DNA from: Lactiplantibacillus pentosus | GTDB lineage: Bacteria; Bacillota; Bacilli; Lactobacillales; Lactobacillaceae | NCBI RefSeq assembly: GCF_003641185.1 | Contig: NZ_CP032757.1 | Coordinates: 620,001 to 684,000 of the forward strand | Direction of reading: 5' to 3' | DNA length: 64,000 nucleotides | In this document: piece by piece, positions 2,931 through 17,713 of the stretch | Position numbering within the stretch: position 1 is the first letter of the stretch | Layout: every line of letters begins with the position of its first letter | The notes under the pieces: model-generated | Seen by the model: the letters and a program-made list of their open reading frames with translations, nothing else | Told to the model about the DNA's origin: nothing | The model's database searches: none | Translations under genes and position numbers: made by a program

Positions 2931-2980
2931 ACGAGATTCGGATGAGCCTTTTGAAGCGGCCCATGCGAATCTCGTTTTTT
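2931..2980 (+). terminator. Rho-independent terminator of pncB-nadE
   Basis: A perfect 10-bp stem (ACGAGATTCG at 2931-2940 with its complement at 2966-2975) is followed by TTTTTT. It closes the NAD salvage operon. Confidence 0.85.
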
Positions 2981-2984
2981 AGGT

Positions 2985-4230
2985 GCTTGTGTTCAAACCA
3001 GTTATATCACAGGTTTATCTATTAGCGTTGGAACTGAAACGTGGTCTATTGTAAGCAAACGCAGATGCCTTTTGAAACGTGCTGGTTCTTAAGTTCAAAT
3101 GCAGCCAGCTTAGACCCGCTGGAAGCAGTGCGAGTTACCGTAAACTTTCTGTTGTAGTTGCGTCCTAGTCCGGCTTCCAGGCATTCTGGGCAATGGCCGG
3201 AACGTGATGGACGCAGATTTAAGCCGACAAACCACGTCTTAAATACTGGTCTTTCACTAACCAAGCACAAAACGCTTGCTAAGTGAAATTTCACCACTGG
3301 GCCTTGCCCCAAATACCTTCCAGCCGGGACAGTATTCGAAAGGCAGACATGGGTGTACCCAGCTTTTTAATGAAATGTCCGCTGATTTGCAGTAAACAGT
3401 CGTTTTGACCTTCAACTGTCAGACTTGTTCATAATGATAGCTAAACTTTTTCCCTAGTCTTTAGGTCTTCAAATCATCGGGTTCACTGGACTTTCCATAC
3501 CTTTCTATGTTGCCTAAGATAATAAAACCGTGAATTCTAAACGAAGAGAATTTTATCGATTAAATTCAAGACTAGTGTCCGTTGAAATTAATGAATCATA
3601 TTTTAGCAATCTTCTCAGTACTTAAATGTCGTAAAGTATCAACGATACCACTTTAAAGTTTGCCTGAAAGGCCGGTCTTCCAACATTCAGTTGTCAATTG
3701 CACCCAAATAGGTGGCCGTTCATCAGCCATTCGAGCGGGTTCCCGACTGTCCGGCCCGCCGGACAATGCTCAGTAGCCAAATTATTCTTAGTCGGAAGTG
3801 GTCTTCTTCCGGCTTAGAATAAGACTCGTATTTGAAATTGCGCAGTGGGTTTCTGCGTGAGTTCAAATCGATGTCGGCTGCGCTCCAGCAATTGTCAGCC
3901 GGCCCCGGAAGTCGGAGTAGGATGCGCAAATGCTGACGAACATTACACCAACTAACTGGCACGTTTCAATCATGAGCCATGACATCGACTCTCACACGCG
4001 TCATAACGGAACTTGGACCATAAGCGCACACAGCCGTTTTATCTAGCGTTTGATACCGTTTTCGTGGCTTTGGGCTAATATAAGTATTAAAATTGAGGTT
4101 AACAAAATAAGTGAACATTTGACTGTACTAGAACAGGAACATCATAAGTTATCACGGCGTTGACGGTATAAAGTGCGCAGGAGTTGAAATCGCACACTTG
4201 ATCGTTCAAGCGATTATTTTGCTAGACAGC
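2985..4230. other. 1.25 kb gene-free region rich in imperfect hairpins
   Basis: No reading frame here has a good start, ribosome site and protein-like composition. The sequence is dense in hairpins: 3100-3127 (loop 8), 3252-3288 (15-bp stem with 2 mismatches, loop 7), 3559-3592 (10 of 11 paired), 3748-3765 (perfect 7-bp TGTCCGG stem, loop 4), 3784-3820 (15-bp stem with one mismatch and one wobble, loop 7), 3830-3868 (ATTTGAA plus CGCAG stems, loop 7) and 3875-3901. CTGGAAGC at 3119-3126 can also pair with GCTTCCAG at 3173-3180. The region could be a large structured RNA or a decayed repeat or mobile element. I cannot assign a known family. Confidence 0.5.
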
Positions 4231-12900: not shown

Positions 12901-12919
12901 ACTTTTTGTGAGTTGTGAT

Positions 12920-13004
12920 GCGGCCATGGCGGAATTGGCAGACGCGCAAGATTAAGGATCTTGTCGGGGTTAACCCGGTGGAAGTTCGAATCTTCTTGGC
13001 CGCA
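12920..13004 (+). tRNA. tRNA-Leu(AAG)
   Basis: An 85-nt class II tRNA. The acceptor stem is GCGGCCA with TGGCCGC; the anticodon stem CAAGA/TCTTG holds the loop TTAAGGA, giving anticodon AAG (Leu). It has a long variable arm and a T-loop TTCGAAT. CCA is not encoded. The last 16 bases are the phage attachment core, and integration restores the 3' end. Confidence 0.96.
12989..13004 (+). other. attL core
   Basis: AATCTTCTTGGCCGCA, the last 16 bases of tRNA-Leu, is repeated exactly at 55557-55572. Confidence 0.93.
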
Positions 13005-13102
13005 TTTTTTATGCAGAATAGTCGGTATTGATACGATTAATCGTTGATATACCGGCTTTTCTTTTATACATGATAGTGAATAATACGGAATAAAACGGAA
13101 CA

Positions 13103-13166: not shown

Positions 13167-14324
13167 TTATTGAGCCAGTATTTTACTCATATCGTAGACC
13201 TGTGCAGACAGTTCCTGTTGGGATAGATGAGCATAAATATTGAGCGTAATTTTAATATCACTATGACCCATTTGCATTTGTAGTGCTTTGACGTTGATAT
13301 TATTTGCAACTTGAATTGATGCAAACGTGTGACGTAACCCGTGGACTGTGATTGTGGGTAAGTCCGTTTCACCTATCAAGGCCTCGAGCCAATGGTTGGG
13401 TGTCATCACTGACATGATTTGGCCTTTCTTGTTGGTAAAGATAAGATCTTTAGCCCGCGGGATGGCTACTAACGACTTGCGATACTTTTTAAGTCGGTCG
13501 ATTGTTGAGCTATCCAGTGAGAGTGTGCGGTAGGCATTTCTAGTTTTGGGTGTTGATATTATCTGATGGTTATCAATTGAACGAGAGATAGTTTTACTGA
13601 TTGTTACCATCCCATTCTTAAAATCAATATCCGACCATGTTAACGCAAGTGCTTCACCTTTCCGCATACCTGTGGTAGCAAGTAAATAAAACAGTGCACT
13701 ACGGTCATACCGTGGTTGTGTTCTGTGTCCGTCGGTAGCATCAACAACTGATAGAAATGTAGCCAATTGCTCAGCAGTCCAAAAATTATCAGCTGCTTTA
13801 TCCTTTGAATAGTCAACGGGAACTTTTGGGACGTCAACTAATTTCATTGGGTTGGTAGTAATAACGCCCATTTTTTGAGCTGTCCGGAAAACTAGTGCTG
13901 CATATTGGGATAGCTTATTGAACTGCTTAACACTCTCACGCCACTTTAAAGCTTCTTCTTGGCACTTTTGCCATGTAATCGTATTAATCCTCATGCCACC
14001 GAAAGAAGGCATTATATGGTGCTTAAAGATGCCTTCAACGCGATTCAAAGTACTTTCTTTTACGCCTAGCTTGTAAGTCTTTAGCCATACTTCGTAAACT
14101 TCATCGAAAGTAGGATTATCCATAATAGCAGCTGGATTGTTTTTACGCTGATCAAATTCAACTTTGGCGCGATCAAACGCTAACTTAGCAGCCTTACTAC
14201 TACTAAAGCCCCCGTGGTGATAGGTTTTAGTTTTGGTGTTACCGTTAATATCAGTATACTTTCCAAGGTAGCCACGAACGTCATATACCCGTTTGCTACC
14301 AATTATTTTATGTGTAATTTTCAT
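13167..14324 (-). CDS. int: phage tyrosine-type site-specific integrase
   Basis: A 385-residue recombinase that would insert and excise the prophage at tRNA-Leu. It has an N-terminal AP2-like arm-binding region (residues 1-60), a SAM-like core-binding domain (about 70-165) and a catalytic domain. Catalytic residues visible are R221 (TGMRKGEA), H328 and R331 (HGLRHTFAS), H354 (MGHSDIK) and Y364 (NIYAHL). Ribosome site GGAGG precedes the ATG. It is the last gene of the leftward lysogeny operon and lies 160 bp from the attachment core. Confidence 0.96.
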   Translation of the reverse strand: MKITHKIIGSKRVYDVRGYLGKYTDINGNTKTKTYHHGGFSSSKAAKLAFDRAKVEFDQRKNNPAAIMDNPTFDEVYEVWLKTYKLGVKESTLNRVEGIFKHHIMPSFGGMRINTITWQKCQEEALKWRESVKQFNKLSQYAALVFRTAQKMGVITTNPMKLVDVPKVPVDYSKDKAADNFWTAEQLATFLSVVDATDGHRTQPRYDRSALFYLLATTGMRKGEALALTWSDIDFKNGMVTISKTISRSIDNHQIISTPKTRNAYRTLSLDSSTIDRLKKYRKSLVAIPRAKDLIFTNKKGQIMSVMTPNHWLEALIGETDLPTITVHGLRHTFASIQVANNINVKALQMQMGHSDIKITLNIYAHLSQQELSAQVYDMSKILAQ

Positions 14325-14344
14325 TTTATTTTTTCCTCCATATT

Positions 14345-14371
14345 GACTATGCGAGGGGCCAAATTATTGGA
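14345..14371 (+). repeat. dispersed repeat copy 1 (CTATGCGAGGGGCCA)
   Basis: The word CTATGCGAGGGGCCA followed by NTTATTGG upstream of int is repeated at 19673-19699. A shorter inverted relative (TTGGCCCCTCACAAG) lies next to attR near 55461. It may be a recombination or excisionase site. Confidence 0.45.
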
Positions 14372-14401
14372 AAAAATATTGCAAGCAACACCTTCTTTCA
14401 G

Positions 14402-14489
14402 TAAAATAGAGTATACAAAAGGGGTACATGATTAATGTATTCTGGTGCAAGCACATCCAACTTCTTGGCGGGAGGGGATGTGCTTTTTT
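14402..14489 (+). ncRNA. candidate small RNA divergent from int
   Basis: On the plus strand TTGCAA (14379-14384) and TAAAAT (14402-14407) are 17 bp apart. About 40 bp downstream comes a terminator: AGCACATCC with GGATGTGCT, then TTTTTT (about 14452-14489). The predicted 75-nt transcript also holds a TACAT/ATGTA hairpin and no convincing reading frame. It would be a short RNA transcribed away from the integrase. Confidence 0.5.
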
Positions 14490-14494
14490 GCTCC

Positions 14495-14857
14495 TTACAG
14501 GTCGTTATTAGCGAATGTATCTCTTAAAAGAACTAATGCCAACAAAGCAATCCACATTAAAGGATAATGAAAATGATAGTAGAAAACAGCAAATATAATT
14601 CCAATAACTCCTACGATCATTATCAGCCACGAGACTAGGCTTGAAGTGTAATGTTTCTGATCAAGTGAAGGATTACTTTTAATAGCTGGTTTATATAGAG
14701 TAAAATGGGCTATTAATGAAAATATAAAGATAACTGGCAATATCCATAGTGAATCTGCAAATATTGATTTTGGATATGTTTCCTCCAATGCCAGCACTAT
14801 GAAAAATGGGTAAAAGTCAATATTATTCACAAGAGCATATTTCCAATTGAAATTCAT
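14495..14857 (-). CDS. hypothetical four-TM membrane protein
   Basis: A 120-residue protein with four hydrophobic segments (near YPFFIVLAL, WILPVIFIFSLIAHF, WLIMIVGVIGIIFAVF and MWIALLALVLL). I chose ATG 14857 because GGAGATGG lies 8-9 bp before it; the upstream ATG at 14869 overlaps that ribosome site. It lies between int and tRNA-like element 1 in the lysogeny operon. It could be a lysogenic-conversion or exclusion protein, but no family was recognised. Confidence 0.6.
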   Translation of the reverse strand: MNFNWKYALVNNIDFYPFFIVLALEETYPKSIFADSLWILPVIFIFSLIAHFTLYKPAIKSNPSLDQKHYTSSLVSWLIMIVGVIGIIFAVFYYHFHYPLMWIALLALVLLRDTFANNDL

Positions 14858-14908
14858 CGATCTAACCATCTCCAATAATTGTTAAGTTTTATATTCAAAA
14901 ATTTAAAC

Positions 14909-14999
14909 GCGAGCGGCAGGAGTCGGACCTGCATCAATATAGGATGTGAGACCTATGAGAAGTGTGCAAATAATCGTTCTACCGTTGAACTACGCTCGC
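14909..14999 (-). ncRNA. tRNA-like element 1 (43-nt insert)
   Basis: On the minus strand: acceptor GCGAGCG with CGCTCGC (7 of 7), TA, D-arm GTTC-AACGGTA-GAAC, then 43 nt (14933-14975), then T-arm GCAGG-TCCGACT-CCTGC. The anticodon arm and variable loop are replaced by the insert, which holds only an ATAGG/CCTAT hairpin with an 8-nt loop and no canonical 5-bp stem and 7-nt loop at the right place. CCA is not encoded. Confidence 0.75.
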
Positions 15000-15014
15000 A
15001 TGTTAACAGAAGTT

Positions 15015-15203
15015 TCAATAGATGTTGTAAAAAGTTGTGTACATACCAAACAATCCCACGATGATGGCAACTATTAATTTGAGGGTTATTATAAACATGT
15101 TGTAGGGGTTGTTATGATTTGTTTGCAGAAGTGTGTCTACAACTAAGTAAAGAGATAGCACTATCAATCCCCAATCTAATAGTTTTGTGATATCAATATT
15201 CAT
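15015..15203 (-). CDS. small two-TM membrane protein
   Basis: A 62-residue protein starting MNIDITKLLDWG with two hydrophobic segments (GLIVLSLYLVV and IITLKLIVAIIVGLFGM). ATG 15203 is preceded by GGAGG at ideal spacing; the upstream in-frame ATG at 15215 overlaps that site. It sits between tRNA-like elements 1 and 2. Function unknown. Confidence 0.6.
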   Translation of the reverse strand: MNIDITKLLDWGLIVLSLYLVVDTLLQTNHNNPYNMFIITLKLIVAIIVGLFGMYTTFYNIY

Positions 15204-15239
15204 AGGTGCCTCCATAATTATTTGCTATTAACGTACAAT

Positions 15240-15320
15240 GCGAGCGACAGGAGTCGAACCTGCATAATAGTATTAGTGAGAGAGAAGGGGCATAGTGTTC
15301 TGCCATTGAACTACGCTCGC
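15240..15320 (-). ncRNA. tRNA-like element 2 (33-nt insert)
   Basis: Same scaffold as element 1: GCGAGCG/CGCTCGC acceptor, GTTC-AATGGCA-GAAC D-arm, T-arm GCAGG-TTCGACT-CCTGT (one G-U). The 33-nt insert (15264-15296) is pyrimidine-rich (CCCCTTCTCTCTC) and shows no stem at all. The D-loop GG motif reads GGC, and the T-loop is canonical. Confidence 0.75.
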
Positions 15321-15372
15321 ATAAGGGGACACCAACTTGTTATCTGATGTCTCACTATTTTAGATGTAAAAA

Positions 15373-15462
15373 TTAATTTCGCTTGCTGTAAGGTACAGCA
15401 TACTCTTCGGGCGCGTCTCTGGGACTAGCATGTTTCCAATGAGTGTTTGATTTATTCAGCAT
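15373..15462 (-). CDS. 29-residue hypothetical peptide
   Basis: The reading frame (MLNKSNTHWKHASPRDAPEE...) starts at an ATG overlapping the stop of the preceding 48-codon frame, with AAAGGATG upstream. Composition looks protein-like. It is too short for a firm call. It sits between tRNA-like elements 2 and 3. Confidence 0.35.
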   Translation of the reverse strand: MLNKSNTHWKHASPRDAPEEYAVPYSKRN

Positions 15463-15602
15463 GGGGGGTCATCCTTTAAACAAGTAAACCTAGAGCCGTG
15501 AGCATCTTCGATAATAAAAATACGTTGAAAAGAATGTAGAGTATTGACAATTTTACAATTGTCGTGCTTGATATTATAAACGTCTGTATATATTTTCCCC
15601 AT
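15456..15602 (-). CDS. 48-residue hypothetical protein
   Basis: The frame starts MGKIYTDVYNIKHDNCKIV at 15602, about 8 bp after GAGG; an ATG two codons earlier (15608) is too close to that site. Stop and downstream start overlap (ATGCTGA). Predicted soluble and unrecognised. It lies in the leftward operon between tRNA-like elements 3 and 2. Confidence 0.4.
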   Translation of the reverse strand: MGKIYTDVYNIKHDNCKIVNTLHSFQRIFIIEDAHGSRFTCLKDDPPC

Positions 15603-15643
15603 ATTCATTACCTCGTTTCTATTTTGGGGGAGAGACGATATAA

Positions 15644-15733
15644 GCGAGCGGCAGGAGTTGGACCTGCATAGTAGTCCAAGAAAGAATGGGCTTCAAGACT
15701 TGGAACAATGTTCTACCGCTGAACTACGCTCGC
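15644..15733 (-). ncRNA. tRNA-like element 3 (42-nt insert)
   Basis: Scaffold: GCGAGCG/CGCTCGC acceptor, D-arm GTTC-AGCGGTA-GAAC, T-arm GCAGG-TCCAACT-CCTGC. The 42-nt insert (15668-15709) has a TCCAAG/CTTGGA stem with an 18-nt loop, not an anticodon arm. The T-loop departs from TTCRA (TCCAA). Confidence 0.75.
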
Positions 15734-15780
15734 AAGATGCCAACTGAAATGATTCAATTGGCTTGACTGGCAAAATTTTA

Positions 15781-15963
15781 CTATTCCTCTCTTTGCTTGA
15801 AGCGTGTCACCAAATCGTCTTTAATTCCTTTAAGCATACGGTCGTATTCTGCTTCGGAATAGCTATCTTTTGATAGGTAGAGAATGGCGTCAGATTTTAC
15901 AAAGGCTGTTAAGTCACTGATAATATCTTCTATTAGTTCGTACCTTGAAATATCTTGATGCAT
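15781..15963 (-). CDS. 60-residue hypothetical helical protein
   Basis: A charged, helical protein (MHQDISRYELIEDIISDLT...) with AAGG about 9 bp upstream of the ATG. It lies between tRNA-like elements 4 and 3. No family recognised. Confidence 0.6.
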   Translation of the reverse strand: MHQDISRYELIEDIISDLTAFVKSDAILYLSKDSYSEAEYDRMLKGIKDDLVTRFKQREE

Positions 15964-15990
15964 AGTATTGCCTTCTTTCTTTATTTTAAT

Positions 15991-16086
15991 GCGAGCGGCA
16001 GGGGTCGAACCTGCATCTGAATAGTAGTTTGAGTTATTTAATCGAGGGAAAATAAAGCAACCGTTCTACCGTTGAACTACGCTCGC
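15991..16086 (-). ncRNA. tRNA-like element 4 (48-nt insert)
   Basis: Scaffold: GCGAGCG/CGCTCGC acceptor, D-arm GTTC-AACGGTA-GAAC, T-arm GCAGG-TTCGACC-CCTGC. The 48-nt insert (16015-16062) has a TTATTT/AAATAA stem with a 10-nt loop and ends CTACTATTCAGAT, a tail shared in part with elements 2, 3 and 5. It ends only 5 bp before the genuine tRNA at 16092. Confidence 0.75.
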
Positions 16087-16091
16087 AAAGA

Positions 16092-16165
16092 TGGACCTTG
16101 TTGGACTCGAACCAACGACCGGACGGTTATGAGCCGTCTGCTCTAACCAACTGAGCTAAAGGTCC
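16092..16165 (-). tRNA. tRNA with anticodon CAT (Ile2-type, or Met)
   Basis: A complete cloverleaf on the minus strand: acceptor GGACCTT with AAGGTCC, D-arm GCTC-AGTTGGTTA-GAGC, anticodon arm GACGG-CTCATAA-CCGTC, T-loop TTCGAGT. Anticodon CAT. From memory the body resembles Bacillus tRNA-Ile2, whose C34 is changed to lysidine, more than elongator tRNA-Met. CCA is not encoded. It sits between tRNA-like elements 4 and 5. Confidence 0.9.
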
Positions 16166-16180
16166 AATGAAAATTTAAAT

Positions 16181-16265
16181 GTGAGCGGCAGGAGTCGAAC
16201 CTGCATCTGAAAGTATCTAGTCAGCAACTCAAAGGAGTACTATTCTACCGTTGAACTACGCTCGC
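16181..16265 (-). ncRNA. tRNA-like element 5 (37-nt insert)
   Basis: Scaffold: GCGAGCG with CGCTCAC (one G-U), D-arm GTTC-AACGGTA-GAAT, T-arm GCAGG-TTCGACT-CCTGC. The 37-nt insert (16205-16241) contains ACTCCTTTGAGT, which can fold as a tiny hairpin and includes CTCCTTT, identical to an anti-Shine-Dalgarno core. A forced anticodon arm GTACT-CCTTTGA-GTTGC has one mismatch, two G-U pairs and lacks U33. Confidence 0.73.
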
Positions 16266-16299
16266 ATGTTGCCCGCTAGGCTGGTAGTGGGCGAGGGTG

Positions 16300-16419
16300 C
16301 TACTTTCGTTTATGAATCCAGTAAACTAACATGACGACTAGCGCTATGAAGCAAATGATGCCAATTTCAATGGTAAAGTCGAACACGTGTGTGCTGTACG
16401 TTCCTACATACAATTCCAT
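16300..16419 (-). CDS. 39-residue single-TM peptide
   Basis: The frame MELYVGTYSTHVFDFTIEIG... has one hydrophobic segment (IGIICFIALVVMLVYWI) and a basic C-terminus (HKRK). A GGGG stretch precedes the ATG by about 9 bp. It lies between the 81-residue membrane protein and tRNA-like element 5. Function unknown. Confidence 0.45.
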   Translation of the reverse strand: MELYVGTYSTHVFDFTIEIGIICFIALVVMLVYWIHKRK

Positions 16420-16449
16420 AGCTTTTACCCCGATTAAAATATATTTATA

Positions 16450-16695
16450 CTAGTTATACTTAGCATGTTTATACCCGGCTAAGCCGATAAAATATAATAT
16501 CGCGATTGGCACCCAAATCACCATAACAATTGCTTGTGAAGGAATCCATGTTGCCAGGATAAATAGTACGGCTAATATTGGCAAAAAGATGTGGCCTAGT
16601 GTTCCTAATATCTTCCATAGTGCTAGAAAGATGACGATCATTATTAGTAGTCCCATTACAATTATTCCTCCAAATTCCCCAGCTTTTACCGACAT
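16450..16695 (-). CDS. small membrane protein, three hydrophobic segments
   Basis: An 81-residue protein (MSVKAGEFGGIIVMG...) with hydrophobic stretches IVMGLLIMIVIFLALW, IFLPILAVLFILATWI and VMVIWVPIAILYFIGL. It follows the ImmA-like gene by 10 bp and is likely co-transcribed with the repressor. It resembles superinfection-exclusion-type proteins only in size and location. Confidence 0.65.
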   Translation of the reverse strand: MSVKAGEFGGIIVMGLLIMIVIFLALWKILGTLGHIFLPILAVLFILATWIPSQAIVMVIWVPIAILYFIGLAGYKHAKYN

Positions 16696-16705
16696 CCGTA
16701 TCTGG

Positions 16706-17122
16706 TCAGTAAGTTAACTTATTAGTGCGGAAGGCGTTAACGACATCATCTTCTAATCGTTTGGGTATACCAAAATTTTCCATAAACGGCATGACACTAT
16801 TGTCAGCATACGTATCAACTTCGCTTAAATAAATTGGAATAAGTATTTTCAATGCTTCTAAATTAGCCATGCGCTCGTATTTAGATTTATTGCTAAAACT
16901 AGAAAAATATAATATTCCTTCATCATGGTTGATAACGTGGCCTAGTTCATGTGCCATTTGAAAGGCGATTTCAGACGGATTGTGCCATTTTAGGTTAATT
17001 AAAACGATGTTATTTTCCGGTTTGGCTGACGACGGAGTGTATGCATCTAGTTTGTCTGTTAAGATGCAAGATATTCCATGATCCCAAGCATACTGCATTA
17101 AACGCTTGATGTAGATATTCAA
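16706..17122 (-). CDS. ImmA/IrrE-family metallopeptidase
   Basis: A 138-residue protein with the zinc motif HELGH at residues 58-62 (QMAHELGHVINHDEG). In related mobile elements ImmA-type proteases cleave the phage repressor to trigger induction. It lies 6 bp downstream of the XRE repressor in the same operon, the usual arrangement. The C-terminus (DVVNAFRTNKLTY) is short and without another domain. Confidence 0.85.
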   Translation of the reverse strand: MNIYIKRLMQYAWDHGISCILTDKLDAYTPSSAKPENNIVLINLKWHNPSEIAFQMAHELGHVINHDEGILYFSSFSNKSKYERMANLEALKILIPIYLSEVDTYADNSVMPFMENFGIPKRLEDDVVNAFRTNKLTY

Positions 17123-17128
17123 ATATTA

Positions 17129-17455
17129 TCAGTCCTTCCCACCGTTTAAGATGCGTTTGATGTACTCCATATCTTCAGGAGGGATAGGCTTACCCTGATA
17201 GGTCATAATATAGTCGTCATCTGTAATATCAACTTGTTTGGGCTTCATTGAAGTAGAATTGTCATCCGTTTTGCCCAATAAGTAATCAACAGAAACATTT
17301 AGAACATCGGCAACGGCTTTTAAATTATTGATACTAGGCTCTTTGGTTTTCCATGAATAAATAGTATTTTTGCCTAAATTTGCCTTGTCGTTAACTTGGG
17401 TTAGACTAAATCCGCGTTTTTTTGAAACTTTTTTTATTCTATCCAATACTGTCAT
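17129..17455 (-). CDS. CI-like phage repressor, XRE helix-turn-helix
   Basis: A 108-residue protein with an N-terminal HTH (residues about 5-62: FSLTQVNDKANLGKNTIYSW, then INNLKAVADVLNVSVDYLLG). The short C-terminus lacks a LexA-like peptidase domain, consistent with inactivation by the adjacent ImmA-like protease rather than self-cleavage. It heads the leftward lysogeny operon, and three operator-like sites lie upstream. Confidence 0.88.
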   Translation of the reverse strand: MTVLDRIKKVSKKRGFSLTQVNDKANLGKNTIYSWKTKEPSINNLKAVADVLNVSVDYLLGKTDDNSTSMKPKQVDITDDDYIMTYQGKPIPPEDMEYIKRILNGGKD

Positions 17456-17489
17456 ATCAATGATTTCTCCAAATTCTATGACAAAACAA

Positions 17490-17504
17490 TTAGACTTAGA
17501 CTAA
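17490..17504. promoter_or_regulatory. operator-like site O1
   Basis: TTAGACTTAGACTAA, one of three related 15-bp sites between repressor and cro-like gene (consensus TTAGACTWAGWCTWA). Confidence 0.65.
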
Positions 17505-17511
17505 TTAATTG

Positions 17512-17540
17512 TTGACTATTTTTAGACTAAGACTTATTAT
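17512..17540 (+). promoter_or_regulatory. rightward early promoter with operator O2 in the spacer
   Basis: TTGACT (17512-17517) and TATTAT (17535-17540) are 17 bp apart. Operator-like TTAGACTAAGACTTA (17522-17536) fills the spacer and reaches into the -10, so repressor binding would block the polymerase. Confidence 0.6.
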
Positions 17541-17650
17541 TGATTCATCAAGTAATTAAGCAACAAAAAATACACCTATCGAAACAATAACTTTGGCGAG
17601 AGATTTAGATAGTAGTAGGTTTTAAATTGCTTATTTCGTATGCACTCATT

Positions 17651-17665
17651 TTAGACTTAGTCTAA
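17651..17665. promoter_or_regulatory. operator-like site O3, perfect dyad
   Basis: TTAGACT-T-AGTCTAA, extended to an 8-bp perfect dyad (17650-17666). It lies 48 bp before the cro-like ATG. Confidence 0.7.
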
Positions 17666-17713
17666 ATATAAGTCAATAACTTGATGAATAAATTATGTAA
17701 AGGAGGAGTAAAA

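Follow-up and report, generated by a model that had tools for sequence, protein, structure and literature searches.

The described system nearest to the one reported here is, as far as the available part of its source goes, tRNA-Other of Bacillus cereus, a pseudo-transfer RNA (pseudo-tRNA) that stands outside translation and is tied to a genomic island; it has been proposed to serve, as a tRNA-like portion, in a regulatory RNA whose messenger RNA (mRNA) targets are predicted (PMC3399842). Five tRNA-like elements in a stretch of 64,000 nucleotides (nt) of Lactiplantibacillus pentosus (contig NZ_CP032757.1, positions 620,001 to 684,000; the whole of this stretch is hereafter the window) would resemble it in the first two respects. 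They differ from it in that tRNA-Other, as presented in that part of the source, exists as one gene, has a Trp anticodon, lies within a larger RNA, and has neither interchangeable inserts, nor arrays, nor a prophage lysogeny module around it. The initial annotation of the window had called the kind undescribed, and indeed no account of such a family was found in the open-licence literature; the one lactobacillus paper considered because of the term "tRNA-like" (PMC10763512) uses it, in its available part, for the transfer-messenger RNA.

Phage-encoded tRNA arrays are alike in being tandem genes of tRNA fold, which here are mixed with a tRNA-Gly(UCC) and a tRNA of CAT anticodon, but the elements have no decoding anticodon arm. 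In engineered tRNA-scaffold RNAs, a laboratory design, the tRNA body stabilises a cargo RNA held at the anticodon place; those are designed, whereas the elements are natural and shuffled by evolution. The animal mascRNA is cut from MALAT1 by ribonuclease (RNase) P and RNase Z, and its tRNA-like ends give a stable small RNA, which in the accounts available carries no variable cargo. Temperate phages also encode antisense immunity RNAs, such as C4 of P1 and the CI RNA of P4. A prophage-encoded role in lysogeny or immunity would be common to these and to the elements, but C4 and the CI RNA are not tRNA-shaped cassettes, and the Rfam model of the C4 antisense RNA has no match in the window at its gathering threshold, nor up to E 5 in 14300–16700. 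Because they lack an anticodon arm, the elements are not tRNAs; on their anatomy they would form a categorically new class, for which the function proposed below is predicted from sequence.

The five elements lie on the minus strand at the places first annotated and, with the discriminator base included, they are E1 (14908–14999, insert 14934–14975 of family F5), E2 (15239–15320, insert 15265–15296, F9), E3 (15643–15733, insert 15669–15709, F3), E4 (15990–16086, insert 16016–16062, F10), and E5 (16180–16265, insert 16206–16241, F0). Each has a 7-base-pair (bp) acceptor, a 4-bp D-arm, a 5-bp T-arm, and the usual elbow bases. The acceptor, D-arm, and T-arm are common to all five, as annotated, although in E5 the second acceptor pair is mismatched (C-A) and the D-stem ends in G-U. 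The Rfam tRNA model RF00005, whose gathering score is 29, gives 42–47 bits for all five (45.6, 45.2, 43.2, 47.1, and 42.1 bits from E1 to E5) in alignments that bypass the anticodon arm. The search of the 64 kb reported four of them (E 6e-7 to 1.5e-5), and E3 was picked up in a search of a shorter region (43.2 bits, E 2.8e-7). A family model, R1, gives 79–84 bits (80.1, 79.1, 78.9, 84, and 78.6 bits in the same order) and 18 bits for the sole ordinary tRNA that it reports in the window; since R1 was built from 25 relatives of the elements, high scores are expected for the latter. ARAGORN calls E4 a tRNA-Glu and E5 a tRNA-Lys.

Between the D-stem and base 48 the elements carry 42, 32, 41, 47, and 36 nt, which, as first noted, cannot be aligned with one another. 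The initial annotation placed these inserts "instead of" an anticodon arm. This is right in that the Rfam alignments omit the arm, and too strong in that several inserts of the wider family keep a helix at the place of the anticodon stem. In the window, E3 has an inner helix of 6–7 bp, E4 and E5 have short ones at most, and E1 and E2 have none that is convincing. A readable anticodon arm, with 5 bp and a 7-base loop, is absent from the family as a whole: the arm is skipped in alignments, the inserts are of 32–49 nt, and there is no common anticodon. In contrast, the acceptor, D, and T helices and the elbow bases of a tRNA are present, as indicated by the Rfam scores and by base tallies over 72 scaffolds; these tallies omit ordinary tRNAs and the F11 scaffolds starting GTGAGCGTAGTTTAAGGG, and they, like some copy counts, take in repeated stretches of the L. 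pentosus genome.

A scan of viral contigs, probed with the 5′ half of the scaffold, gave at least 120 stretches (L001–L120), so that 121 were examined with the window. At least 277 copies of the element were found in 119 of the 121, the two without being L073 and L083, and they comprise 130 distinct elements and 87 distinct inserts. The inserts were sorted by keywords into 19 families (the label F1 stands for the tRNA-Gly group); because F19 comes from genome contigs, and the copy and boundary counts use only L001–L120 and the window, the 277 or more copies span 18 families.

The fold of the scaffold is conserved through compensation. Of 400 pair cells, 97.8% are standard, and 7 of the 16 pairs show double, compensated changes, a result reached in none of 500 shuffles; in controls with the structure slid along the sequence only 33%–55% are paired. 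Because base changes are compensated and the elbow bases of tRNA are retained, the RNA fold of the scaffold is under selection. The claim that a selected tRNA-like fold carries a variable cargo in a prophage is supported. The initial annotation had also named its own alternative, that homologs with intact anticodon arms would reveal recent decay, and this was not borne out: in 119 of the 121 stretches the homologs, with compensated stems, carry either the same long inserts or different ones. That the elements are decaying tRNA genes, or ordinary type-II tRNAs misread, could draw on the ARAGORN calls (tRNA-Lys and tRNA-Glu for two of the five, Lys or Leu for others) and on the nearest ordinary relatives, which are tRNA-Gly and tRNA-Trp. 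It is extremely improbable given the at least 277 copies with a near-constant scaffold and compensated changes, an inconsistent anticodon, and a discriminator that varies. Both versions were rejected on the scaffold tallies, the compensated changes, the copy counts, and the boundary profile.

This profile, drawn from seven insert families, compares copies lying in different contexts. Identity is 0.31–0.78 upstream, rises to 0.87–1.00 in the 5′ half, and is mostly above 0.9 in the 3′ half (the lowest values being 0.65 and 0.81); the discriminator has 0.56, the two bases after it have 1.00 and 0.75, and the values beyond are about 0.3–0.6. The discriminator was A in 167, G in 70, and U in 40 of the 277 copies examined, a variation that argues against a single amino-acid identity. 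The base after it was U in all 277, and a CCA was encoded in none. According to the available parts of two sources, RNase Z cleaves past the discriminator of CCA-less tRNAs, whichever base this is, and is inhibited by a C just downstream (PMC7479834; PMC8549757). The lack of an encoded CCA and the U after the discriminator thus suit RNase Z. The elements have what processing by RNase P and RNase Z calls for, namely a CCA-less 3′ end, no C past the discriminator, and limits of conservation at the mature ends.

Inserts are unrelated across families and alike within them, with 0%–14% pairwise difference in the 11 families measured. In F0, F2, F3, F5, and F8 the 60-nt flanks differ at 0.36–0.55 of sites around such inserts, and in F4, F6, F7, F9, F10, and F11 the flanks are partly or closely related. 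The first base of the insert is a purine in 86 of the 87 distinct inserts, as is often the case at tRNA position 26. A helix at the anticodon-stem place closes an enlarged loop in F4 (5 bp, with compensated variants by eye), F7 (11 bp), and F11 (4–6 bp). With one insert taken per family for this and the following tests (19 families), helices between the end regions of inserts exceed those of shuffles when pooled (Fisher p 2e-4), F3, F4, F7, and F12 having single p <0.05. A covarying inner hairpin in F6 was sought by eye and was not upheld.

The inserts are rich in C and poor in G, with 85 G and 193 C compared with 3419 G and 3111 C in same-strand spacers (Fisher p 9e-13). A run of at least 7 pyrimidines occurs in 13 of the 19 families (shuffle mean 5.9, the observed count being reached in 0 of 500) and, among 337 spacer windows, in 12%. 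The motifs CCC or CTCC are present in 14 of the 19 (6 of 500 shuffles) and in 18% of spacer windows. The elements thus have the CU-rich, G-poor segment of C-rich antisense small RNAs (sRNAs). In low-GC Gram-positives the binding of Shine-Dalgarno regions by C-rich sRNAs is established, according to the part of the source available, for LhrC, RsaE, and FsrA, and LhrC of Listeria is multicopy and G-poor (PMC4132741). The likeness to LhrC, RsaE, SprD, and FsrA lies in CU-rich single-stranded segments, with targeting of Shine-Dalgarno regions being known there and predicted here; as far as the same source goes, those sRNAs are free-standing, have no tRNA scaffold, and have known targets, and their UCCC motif is not enriched in the elements. 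Because such segments are common in Gram-positive sRNAs, the elements may by analogy work like C-rich sRNAs, and an antisense reading is favoured, tentatively and at somewhat less than an even chance.

We propose, with that same caution, that the elements are tRNA-bodied antisense sRNAs of the lysogen, with CU-rich loops that pair with Shine-Dalgarno regions. They would be transcribed in the lysogen as part of a repressor-to-integrase transcript, from which RNase P and RNase Z would excise them at the acceptor ends, as they do with tRNAs, and the closed fold of acceptor, D-arm, and T-arm would protect the RNA. In place of the 7-base anticodon loop the RNA would display a CU-rich, G-poor segment of 32–49 nt, in some families on a helix like an anticodon stem, and this segment would pair with the purine-rich Shine-Dalgarno regions of chosen mRNAs and block their translation. 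The mRNAs could be those of competing phages, of lytic genes of the prophage, or of the host, different inserts corresponding to different targets. With the scaffold constant, recombination between prophages might swap elements or inserts and so build arrays of interchangeable regulators. The steps best supported are the selected RNA fold, the tRNA-type ends, and the base bias of the inserts. Also observed are the family itself, its shuffling, and, where genes are readable, its place in lysogeny modules. Among the functions first offered, an antisense or guide RNA fits best, on the indirect evidence of CU-rich, G-poor inserts and tRNA-end signatures, although a convincing target was not found.

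Complementarity to the Shine-Dalgarno consensus exceeds that of dinucleotide shuffles when the families are pooled (Fisher p 6e-4), and it is carried mostly by F11, F13, and F15. Several results weigh against the antisense proposal. The match is unremarkable singly in 14 of the 19 families (p >0.2), the reversed consensus used as a control nearly equals the consensus itself (−6.8 vs −7.6), enrichment is lacking for the strict UCCC motif (5 of 19 families; 117 of 500 shuffles), and the opposite kind of motif, GGG or GGAG, exceeds shuffles too (3 of 19; 18 of 500). Set against linked four-fold sites, inserts diverged less in 6 of 12 comparisons and more in the other 6, a 13th pair having one haplotype only; given this split, strong purifying selection on the inserts is not claimed. 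In the scaffold, U55 is replaced by C in 16 of the 72 tallied. Near-complements of 17–25 nt with 2–3 mismatches, searched in the L. pentosus genome with parts of all five inserts of the window, were the elements themselves and one site, for E5, with 2 mismatches. In hybridisation with three prophage regions of the same genome, 6 of 8 inserts failed to exceed the best-scoring of 8 shuffles, and E2 and E5 beat all 8 by 0.3–0.4 kcal/mol only, the sites concerned not being evident ribosome sites. Four of the five inserts gave, in 50,697 phage records, other copies or matches at E ≥0.6. Finally, the best pairs of inserts with ORF (open reading frame) starts, F13 with p2 and F10 with p1, may be due to chance after 684 tests, and loci bearing F10 do not always carry a matching p1 start.

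The target search suggested with the first annotation found no convincing target in the host genome, in its prophage regions, or, for the four inserts searched there, in the phage collection. Hybridisation with 1726 predicted start regions and with the ORFs of the arrays yielded a weak signal when pooled, none of the pairs being convincing, and blastn-short searches of the fetched loci, with elements masked, returned unmasked copies or matches judged to be chance. The sites of E2 and E5 were not counted as targets, the margin over 8 shuffles being slight. The family F11 was considered as antisense to a start region (its reverse complement reads GGAGGT..ATG) and set aside: in 35 viral stretches, those with the F11 context are elements, including in L166 a changed copy missed by the element finder, and the rest have unrelated surroundings. 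Short seeds, or targets in rival phages beyond the collections searched, are possible.

Arrays were mapped at 60 loci with at least 3 elements, 49 of them distinct. Among neighbours inside the distinct arrays, element-ORF occurs 103 times, ORF-element 95, ORF-ORF 32, and element-element 27. This bears on the suggestion that the elements are processing punctuation, in which the folds would be RNase P and RNase Z sites that split the lysogeny transcript into small mRNAs, in the style of mitochondrial tRNAs, and the insert would be filler. The predominant alternation (103 and 95), the tRNA-like ends, and the lack of terminators agree with it. The same arrays have 27 directly tandem pairs of elements and 32 pairs of ORFs with nothing between, and filler would not give recurring C-rich insert families that persist across differing flanks, so that this part of the initial annotation holds for the alternation, fails for the tandem elements and the inserts, and is judged unlikely.

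ORF families and insert families are widely recombined and their order is shuffled, with some steady partners such as p3 with F4 and F9 with p2. Because flanks and partners differ around inserts that are kept, for several families the moving unit is the element and not the element with a gene. Shuffled orders, and copies of F0, F2, F3, F5, and F8 in the divergent flanks described above, would also be expected if the scaffold were mainly a DNA homology block that moves morons between prophages as recombination cassettes, with an RNA of no function. This is very improbable: compensated changes and elbow bases reflect selection on an RNA fold and not on DNA identity, and a homology block has no need of C-rich inserts.

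The partners raise another possibility, that the elements are local antisense or antitoxin-like RNAs that silence the membrane-peptide ORFs of the array (e.g., p1, p2, and p3), the arrays being addiction or exclusion modules. Small single-pass membrane ORFs do alternate with elements, most maps that have p3 or F4 place p3 immediately upstream of F4, and by hand count F10 fits the start region of p1 over about 15 pairs and F13 that of p2 over about 10. Yet p1 precedes many families (F0, F3, F6, F8, F10, F12, F14, and F18), the top pairs are those that may be chance among the 684 tests, at the F10-bearing loci L164 and L178 the p1 start lacks the complementary sequence, and in the window the p1 start is outside the five best sites for E4. 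Local silencing is thus quite unlikely.

The initial annotation had also offered decoys for tRNA-cutting enzymes. In a broader form, the elements would be sponges for a host or phage protein that binds the tRNA body (an anticodon nuclease, a synthetase, or a modification enzyme), the insert blocking normal use. The best conserved parts are indeed the elbow and the acceptor, and elements are mixed with real tRNAs. Many tRNA-cutting defence enzymes cut in the anticodon loop, which is gone here, and inserts that are C-rich, sequence-specific, and recurrent in families would be left unexplained, which makes a decoy, in our estimate, highly unlikely.

An extension of the antisense proposal, in itself doubtful, is that in lactobacillus prophages the elements make up a guide system that is natural, programmable, and free of dedicated proteins. 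In it a constant scaffold processed by the host would present exchangeable antisense loops to mRNAs of rival phages or of the host, and an exchange of inserts by way of the common scaffold would re-aim the array, much as new spacers do for a CRISPR (clustered regularly interspaced short palindromic repeats) array. The elements would be a natural class of RNA whose single tRNA body serves many exchangeable cargoes, with maturation by existing bacterial enzymes, and would show phages putting tRNA genes to use as small regulators. The binding partners of the inserts can be tested for directly in food-grade laboratory bacteria, and tRNA models without the anticodon arm would provide a simple search rule for further cases.

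The genome of L. pentosus has 8 elements at 3 places, one of which is beside a real tRNA-Gly(UCC) of similar scaffold. When 301 genomes from the bacterial family were searched for a strict match to the scaffold, which undercounts diverged scaffolds, 7 had one, and these belong to 3 of 40 genera; in a one-genome-per-species collection searched with the same limit, 9 of 10 matches are from Lactobacillaceae, the tenth being a different scaffold on a Prevotella contig. Across 148 genomes from the order, about 20 of them of the same family, the model found nothing of element grade (above 75 bits) except in the own genome; elsewhere the highest score was 56 bits, and at the 19 loci inspected the match falls on ordinary tRNAs. 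Phage Sha1 has three elements, themselves unannotated, between annotated genes. Four circular records labelled plasmids (three of L. plantarum, one of Levilactobacillus brevis) have 1–4 elements each between repressor-type genes and an integrase, and these records carry lysis genes, one also a tail gene. In records that name host and genes, the elements occupy the part of Lactobacillaceae phages that runs from repressor to integrase, together with small ORFs and real tRNAs in shuffled order.

The Prevotella element, on a contig of a metagenome-assembled genome (L185, about 2462–2567), has another acceptor and a 57-nt insert and adjoins a tRNA-Ser, in what by eye is phage DNA; it is possibly an independent case. 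Five viral contigs (L228, L229, L231, L234, and L236) have other tRNA-like sequences with other acceptors and 39–56 nt between D- and T-arm, some of which resemble ordinary tRNAs with a long variable arm, L228 and L229 not obviously so. The tRNA-Gly(UCC) that ends many arrays is a separate gene and the nearest intact relative seen. In the real gene (own genome G000:C1:2471264–2471334, which is L215, and more than 40 loci), 12 of 49 positions are off the element consensus, and it is a possible ancestor of the elements. In Lactiplantibacillus phage H1-Guo (L129), a changed copy of this tRNA, its anticodon loop reading CCTCGAA where the real gene has CTTCCAA, shares a module with a diverged element of F2 type (2299–2368 and 2936–3019, respectively). 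ARAGORN labels such elements tRNA-Glu, tRNA-Lys, or tRNA-Leu (in the window, 15989–16087 and 16179–16266; also in L001). Genome annotations may accordingly list false tRNAs for them, and annotation programs may overlook these genes or report them as unusual tRNAs for Lys, Glu, or Leu.

In the window the array is flanked by a CI-like repressor with an ImmA/IrrE peptidase and by an integrase, all on the minus strand, which is the arrangement of a lysogeny module. The helix-turn-helix repressor (17129–17455; Pfam PF01381, E 5.7e-7) is followed by the peptidase (16706–17122; PF06114, E 8e-9), by a small membrane-like ORF of family p4 without Pfam match (16450–16695), and, just upstream of E5, by a 39-residue single-pass membrane peptide of family p1 (16300–16419). 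An ordinary tRNA with a CAT anticodon, Met or lysidine-type Ile2, lies within the array between E5 and E4 (16092–16165; Rfam 71.8 bits, also called by ARAGORN). Small ORFs separate E4 from E3 (p0, 15781–15963, without Pfam match), E3 from E2 (p5, 15456–15608), E2 from E1 (p2, 15015–15215, membrane-like, its 62-residue form without Pfam match), and E1 from the integrase (p6, 14495–14875, membrane-like, without Pfam match), and the integrase (13167–14324; PF00589, E 5.3e-28) ends the array. No terminator-like site was found in 14300–17700, in agreement with the antisense proposal as well as with punctuation, and the same region has 21 promoter-like sites over both strands, the mean of shuffles being 13.8. 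A relative of the p1 peptide gave nothing above the cut-off in a Pfam search; the peptide itself ends in YWIHKRK, has relatives in about 40 fetched loci, and by eye is like small type I toxins. A tRNA-Leu at 12919–13005 adjoins the integrase gene and is likely the attachment site. The CAT tRNA has copies 88%–100% identical in phage or plasmid records of Listeria, Enterococcus, the Bacillus group, and lactobacilli.

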